Of a stretch of 64,000 bases of DNA, positions 4,208-5,042 are shown piece after piece. A program made the position numbers and the translations under genes. The notes below the pieces were generated by a model, which saw only the letters and a program-made list of their open reading frames with translations, did no database searches and had not been told where the DNA came from. This DNA comes from an uncultured Prochlorococcus sp. (lineage in GTDB: Bacteria > Cyanobacteriota > Cyanobacteriia > PCC-6307 > Cyanobiaceae), in NCBI GenBank assembly GCA_902583265.1, contig CACHVD010000002.1, positions 1 through 64,000 of the forward strand. Direction: 5' to 3'. How positions within the stretch are numbered: position 1 is the stretch's first letter; the number at the start of each line of letters is the position of its first letter.

Positions 4208-4235
4208 AAAACTTTTAGAAATACGCATCACTTGC

Positions 4236-4241
4236 TAGAAT
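4236..4241 (+). promoter_or_regulatory. Candidate -10 element for rpsB-tsf
   Basis: TAGAAT lies about 20 bases before the first arm of the structured leader. A -35-like hexamer is weak (TTTTAG around 4213). If used, transcription would start near 4248 and the RNA would include the whole leader structure. Confidence 0.35.
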
Positions 4242-4260
4242 ACATGAAGTATATTTCACA

Positions 4261-4324
4261 CATCTGACAGTTTCGGGTGAATTATCAATATTAATTCCCC
4301 GTCAGATGGAGGCTAACCCGAAAC
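4261..4324 (+). promoter_or_regulatory. Structured rpsB 5' leader with two crossing perfect stems (candidate pseudoknot)
   Basis: CATCTGAC (4261-4268) is perfectly complementary to GTCAGATG (4301-4308), and GTTTCGGGT (4270-4278) is perfectly complementary to ACCCGAAAC (4316-4324). The arms interleave in the order a, b, a', b', which is an H-type pseudoknot with linkers of 1, 22 and 7 nt. The last arm ends 13 bases before the rpsB ATG and is followed by CCCTTTTTT, so the second stem alone also looks like an attenuator. GGAGG (4308-4312) lies in the linker before the last arm. Ribosomal protein S2 is known to autoregulate rpsB-tsf through a leader RNA in enterobacteria. That this leader binds S2 is inference. 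Confidence 0.7.
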
Positions 4325-4337
4325 CCTTTTTTAAATT

Positions 4338-5042
4338 ATGGCTGTTGTATCACTATCAGAAATGATGGAAGCTGGTGCTCATTTTGGGCATCAAACTAGA
4401 CGTTGGAATCCCAAGATGTCTAAATATATATATTGCGCTAGAAATGGAGTTCATATTATTGATCTTGTAAAAACAGCATTGTGTATGAACAATGCATATA
4501 AATGGACGAGAAACGCTGCAAAAAGCGGTAAACGTTTCCTATTTGTCGGTACAAAAAAACAAGCATCAGATGTAGTAGCTCAGGAAGCTGCACGCTGTGG
4601 AGCTGCATATGTAAATCAAAGATGGCTTGGTGGGATGTTGACTAATTGGACGACAATGAAAGCAAGGATTGAAAGATTAAAGGATCTAGAAAGAATGGAA
4701 AGTAGTGGTTCAATAGCAATGAGGCCTAAAAAAGAAGCTGCAGTATTAAGAAGAGAACTTGAAAGATTACAAAAATACTTAGGTGGACTTAAGGGTATGA
4801 GAAGATTACCAGATGTTGTTGTATTGGTTGATCAGAGAAGAGAATCTAATGCAGTATTAGAAGCTAGAAAATTAGATATCTCATTAGTATCAATGTTGGA
4901 TACAAATTGCGATCCGGATTTGTGTGAGGTTCCAATTCCTTGTAACGATGATGCCGTTAGATCTGTGCAACTCATTTTAGGAAGACTTGCAGATGCCATA
5001 AATGAAGGTAGAAAGGGTTCTAATGCCGAAAGAAAAAATTAA
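4338..5042 (+). CDS. rpsB: 30S ribosomal protein S2
   Basis: Small-subunit ribosomal protein of 234 residues. It shows the S2 hallmarks: [18 protein letters not shown] near residues 11-28, FVGTKKQA (about 69), [12 protein letters not shown] (about 94-105) and the C-terminal [12 protein letters not shown] (about 183-194). The ATG at 4338 has no close Shine-Dalgarno; GGAGG is 25 bases upstream inside the leader structure. It is followed by tsf after 44 bases, the usual bacterial pairing. Confidence 0.98.

Follow-up and report, generated by a model that had tools for sequence, protein, structure and literature searches.

Autoregulation by ribosomal protein uS2 has been documented for the rpsB leader of E. 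coli, where bS1 acts together with uS2; the portions of that source available to us place the ribosome binding site outside the operator and call the mechanism of repression unclear (PMC10931766). An rpsB motif was reported by Meyer et al. 2009, whose section on it describes P1, P3 and a pseudoknot formed between J2-3 and a 3' extension after P1, in hosts that include Cyanobacteria, where P2 is absent or very short (PMC2704228). A leader pseudoknot upstream of the start site, used for autorepression, is also described for mycobacterial rpsO in the relevant part of PMC10931766; gene and protein (uS15) are different ones, and we liken the two by description. In the available text of PMC7247131 rpsB appears only beside the L13 candidate of Bacteroidia, and it was not found in the available text of PMC2864571. 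A literature search over titles and abstract openings, with few subscription papers, returned neither experiments on a cyanobacterial rpsB leader nor reports of Shine-Dalgarno loss at cyanobacterial rpsB.

The locus described here lies in a 64-kb stretch of Prochlorococcus DNA (the window, meaning the whole stretch that was analysed) and comprises the following features:

4233..4241, + strand: extended -10 promoter element TGCTAGAAT (pattern TGnTANNNT), 19 nt before P1
4248..4337, + strand: predicted rpsB 5' leader, with a start at about 4248 placed from the -10 box
4257..4260, + strand: conserved CACA/CGCA directly before P1, kept across groups and common to t44
4261..4268, + strand: P1 5' arm
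4270..4278, + strand: pseudoknot 5' arm GTTTCGGGT
4279..4297, + strand: P3 hairpin, all modelled pairs of which changed on both sides
4298..4300, + strand: CCC, able to pair with GGG 4275-4277 as in the minimum-energy fold
4301..4308, + strand: P1 3' arm
4308..4314, + strand: GGAGGCT, a conserved junction, of which GGAGGC is also in the E. coli rpsB leader
4316..4324, + strand: pseudoknot 3' arm ACCCGAAAC
4327..4332, + strand: T-run, peculiar to the window's genus
4338..5042, + strand: rpsB, ribosomal protein uS2, 234 aa
5087..5743, + strand: an open reading frame of 218 aa that we take to be tsf, elongation factor Ts, from its sequence and the rpsB-tsf order

P1 joins CATCTGAC (4261-4268) to GTCAGATG (4301-4308) over 8 bp and the pseudoknot stem joins its two arms over 9 bp, every pair in both being perfect. 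The stems cross at 4261-4324, with linkers of 1, 22 and 7 nt between their arms, exactly as the sequence-only reading had laid them out, and the 3' end of the crossing lies 13 nt from the rpsB start codon. A third stem, P3 (GAATTA 4279-4284 with TAATTC 4292-4297), which that reading had overlooked, takes up most of the 22-nt linker, giving the order P1 5' arm, pseudoknot 5' arm, P3, P1 3' arm, GGAGGCT, pseudoknot 3' arm, AUG. The GGAGG that had been placed between the two 3' arms is indeed found there, at 4308-4312, except that its first G is at the same time the last paired base of P1. Each of the four arm strings occurs a single time on the + strand of the window, and three crossing pairs in which both arms have at least 8 perfect bp were counted in the window under our own geometric limits, so that geometry alone is no proof; the proof lies in conservation and covariation.

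The element is the rpsB motif of Meyer et al. 2009, a known kind, in a modest lineage-specific variant. It shares with the published motif its position upstream of rpsB, a covarying P1, P3, the pseudoknot to the 3' extension and the absent or short P2 (here 1 nt separates P1 from the pseudoknot arm), and differs in having 9 pseudoknot pairs, where the text of the motif section gives 5 in most groups; that section is silent on Shine-Dalgarno loss, a nearby start site and a longer pseudoknot (PMC2704228). The suggestion that this would be a new form in picocyanobacteria is thus superseded, since the section had already reported an rpsB motif with a pseudoknot for Cyanobacteria in 2009. By eye, the E. 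coli rpsB leader (L287) carries the same CACA, an 8-bp P1 (382-389 with 430-437), GGAGGC and a pseudoknot of GGGGT with ACCCC (402-406 with 446-450); unlike in the window, its pseudoknot and AUG have an SD-like AGAGG between them. The full-length model of Rfam t44 (tff, RF00127) matches 4239-4318 with 26.1 bits (E 0.0011), below its gathering cut-off of 44, and at gathering scores Rfam yielded no match in the whole window, nor did RF00127 with strict filters in the family genomes (0/61). SNORD12 and drum matches from an E-value Rfam scan were taken as chance.

We compared relatives in three groups: the window's genus, its family outside the genus, and other families of the same class. Matches to rpsB were found in 163/200 genus genomes (30 loci fetched), 110/121 family genomes and 145/146 phylum genomes, and from named contigs the best 80 rpsB loci were kept, with 120 upstream stretches in addition; the uS2 of the window is 100% identical in many named Prochlorococcus contigs. 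Coverage extended to all 105 family genomes outside the genus that had a match, 51 of the 58 class genomes of other families that had one, and 16 genomes from other classes. Two of the 114 genus loci were left out, one with 34 nt upstream (L087) and one that begins inside the gene (L144), and the remaining 112 represent 81 distinct leaders, with the same genome possibly present in both collections.

The leader was present at every rpsB locus examined in the genus (112/112), the family (105/105) and the class (51/51). A script parsed 49 of the class loci, and the other two were recognised by R1, a covariance model built from alignment A1 (below) with cyanobacterial leaders alone and with rough E-values (L264, 13.1 bits, E 0.1, a weak match; L266, 24.0 bits). 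Uninterrupted pseudoknot runs, with G-U included and counted to 9, reached 9 in 112/112 genus and 104/105 family loci and 6-9 in the 49 class loci. The loss of complementarity without compensation in close relatives, which the sequence-only reading had named as counting against the structure, did not appear: a single genus locus of the 112 (L013) has one broken P1 pair, and its pseudoknot, like all others in the genus, keeps 9 pairs. In 14 loci (12/105 family, 2/49 class) the P1 pairing given by the script covered fewer than 7 of 9 positions; re-registering the 12 family loci gave 7 or 8 of 8 P1 pairs, and 13 of the 14 (all except L036), run against R1, matched in 13/13 cases with 40.4 to 64.6 bits. 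These 14 loci were kept in the counts on the 3' side (Shine-Dalgarno, T-run, GGAGG) and omitted from those on the promoter, P3 and CCC.

Covariation was assessed on A1, which holds 54 of 91 non-redundant leaders, mainly short-loop ones, with rows selected for at least 7 of 9 P1 pairs and with P3 columns placed by inspecting the alignment itself. Five of the 7 modelled P1 pairs changed on both sides and 2 were invariant, with 100% of P1 paired, a figure that leans upward because of the way the rows were chosen; in P3, 5/5 pairs changed on both sides and 82.9% of cells were paired. The pseudoknot, modelled with 8 pairs and paired in 95.1% of cells, hardly varies: 2 pairs are invariant, 2 show one-sided variation, 3 depart solely by unpaired cells, and the only one changed on both sides is the outermost modelled, which is unpaired in 14 of the 54 rows. 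For the structure as a whole the covariation score of 0.404 exceeded both the mean of 0.176 in shuffles (0/500 as high) and the values, at most 0.147, obtained with partners slid. Two other measures were less decisive, with 11 double-change pairs where shuffles averaged 9.0 (14/500 shuffles reach 11) and 32 further pair types where they averaged 27.1 (3/500 as high). By eye, compensated pseudoknots were seen in L266 (CTACGGGT/ACCCGTAG), L264 (TGGGT/ACCCA) and E. coli (GGGGT/ACCCC). Of the compensatory changes proposed for both stems, those in P1 were found widely, and those in the pseudoknot were confined almost wholly to these few deep cases; within Cyanobacteria its pairing is carried by near-invariance. 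Positions 4261-4324 are a conserved RNA structure, pseudoknot included.

R1 was also used to trace the range of the element. The model matches the E. coli rpsB leader at L287:376-454 with 24.7 bits (E 2e-5, 84,822 bases searched). With strict filters, 38 of 98 phylum genomes match, which are 38 of the 40 class members, the window's own genome included; the two class members missed are those carrying L264 and L266, and none of the 58 genomes of other classes matched. With filters off, R1 matched 13/13 long-loop leaders given to it and, among 16 loci from other classes, placed only L271 below E 1 (19.4 bits, E 0.0011).

Several minor features of the leaders came to light in these comparisons. 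Five rpsB leaders from other classes (L271, L273, L275, L280 and L281) seem on visual inspection to be diverged versions of the element, with sequences such as GGGGT and AACCCC. Nine family leaders with long P3 inserts (L203, L204, L205, L206, L208, L215, L219, L221 and L228) are matched whole by R1, and parsed loops in the family run up to 138 nt. A family subgroup (L230, L231, L232, L233, L235, L236, L237 and L238) has the junction GGTGGTGG instead of GGTGGAGG and is matched by R1 in 8/8 cases. One genome has a second weak R1 match (G352:C1:44408-44497, 21.6 bits, E 0.007) in addition to its rpsB leader.

The structure is probably transcribed, given a conserved extended -10 box that precedes P1 by about 20 nt. 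The pattern TGnTANNNT occurs 9-45 nt before P1, mostly at a spacing of 19-23 nt, in all distinct stretches of the genus (85/85), family (91/91) and class (46/46). Shuffles gave a background of about 5%, and the adjoining upstream stretch one of 0; the family and class carry the weight of this evidence, since the genus stretches come from close relatives. In the window, a promoter scan gave TTTAGA at 4214-4219, 16 nt, and TAGAAT at 4236-4241 with TG. The conserved box speaks against a transcript start downstream of 4301, as far as promoter motifs can tell.

By analogy with E. coli, the element is very probably the picocyanobacterial form of the rpsB motif, an operator through which free uS2 limits its own synthesis. 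The view of this leader as a regulatory pseudoknot of rpsB accordingly stands on the side of structure, with conservation, covariation in P1 and P3, the promoter element and the match to the E. coli leader all pointing the same way, and its regulatory half is carried over from the described system. Transcription would begin near 4248; uS2 in excess over free 30S subunits would bind the pseudoknot fold and block initiation at the AUG 13 nt downstream, which would lower S2 and, through the shared mRNA, EF-Ts as well. Mimicry of 16S rRNA did not stand out in 7 leaders: 36-190 of 200 shuffles equalled their best scores against the whole E. coli rrsB, and 41-196 of 200 those against rrsB 1041-1130, the uS2 head site. 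Tiny, abundant photosynthetic cells would thereby use a form of ribosomal-protein feedback whose RNA element is conserved across Cyanobacteria and can still be recognised in E. coli.

How such an operator could act is bound up with the start site. SD-like stretches separate pseudoknot and AUG in 49/49 class loci, 1/105 family loci (L223) and 0/112 genus loci. Prochlorococcus is probably not reliant on Shine-Dalgarno sequences, according to the part of PMC5607370 that we draw on, and in the window SD-like stretches precede 8 of 50 open reading frames with 150 codons or more (start codons assigned mechanically), so that the absence at rpsB is in keeping with the genome in general and taken alone is unremarkable. 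With one such stretch among the 217 family and genus loci, initiation is probably SD-independent, and the pseudoknot could hinder the 30S subunit directly. A lineage so cleanly devoid of this signal provides a natural comparison for testing the way in which uS2 represses translation.

The same setting lends itself to another role, in which the pseudoknot would be a translational enhancer, a docking site for 30S or bS1, or an mRNA stability element instead of a uS2 operator. bS1 is said to bind pseudoknots and U-rich sites in the passages of PMC10931766 concerned, and S1-dependent, SD-independent initiation is proposed for Prochlorococcus in those of PMC5607370. We nevertheless regard this role as unlikely, given that, up to E 1, R1 finds a single place in the window's genome (64% complete), at rpsB, and that it matches a leader controlled by uS2 in E. 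coli.

We give little chance to the idea that the GGAGG within the pseudoknot is itself the rpsB Shine-Dalgarno, masked or exposed by the fold. It is the nearest SD-like stretch, there being none between pseudoknot and AUG in 112/112 genus loci, but in the genus its end lies 21-26 nt from the AUG, a greater distance than a normal Shine-Dalgarno allows, it is replaced by GGTGG in 10/105 family loci, and it is kept in 44/49 class loci and in E. coli, which own a separate one. A structural or protein-binding role for GGAGG fits better.

Very little credence is due to the proposal that the second stem and T-run form an intrinsic terminator by which the leader attenuates transcription: CC and six T come after ACCCGAAAC, the energy evaluated for the second stem nested with P3 is -14.4 kcal/mol, and T5 follows the pseudoknot in 71/112 genus loci (48/81 distinct leaders) against 6/50 upstream stretches of open reading frames in the window, but T5 occurs in none of the 105 family and 49 class loci, where the stems are present nonetheless, a hairpin made by the second stem would have 37 nt inside it, quite unlike an ordinary terminator, no compact GC-rich hairpin with an immediate conserved T-run was found, and a terminator scan limited to loops of 3-8 returned 0, leaving transcription termination, raised in the sequence-only reading, poorly supported. 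T4 after the pseudoknot is found in 100/112 genus loci against 2/105 family loci. The genus T-run might be a U-rich bS1 site.

Returning to the uS2 operator, folding of 4248-4337 gave a minimum energy of -20.4 kcal/mol (z -2.41, 4/200 shuffles as low), a value that is not comparable with the pseudoknot because the program draws nested folds only. In this fold P1 and P3 are retained, and CCC 4298-4300 takes GGG 4275-4277 as its partner, so that the pseudoknot cannot form alongside it. We tentatively suggest, as a possibility well short of likely, that in marine picocyanobacteria lacking the rpsB Shine-Dalgarno the uS2 pseudoknot itself serves as the start-site gate in a two-state leader, with GGG switching partners. 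In the on state, GGG would pair with the CCC beside P3 in the nested fold, leaving the 3' extension free and translation on; in the off state, GGG would pair with AACCC near the AUG in a pseudoknot held by uS2, turning translation off. The CCC beside P3 is found in 109/112 genus, 72/93 family and 3/47 class leaders, and is thus common in leaders without the Shine-Dalgarno (181/205 of genus and family together) and rare in those that have one (3/47).
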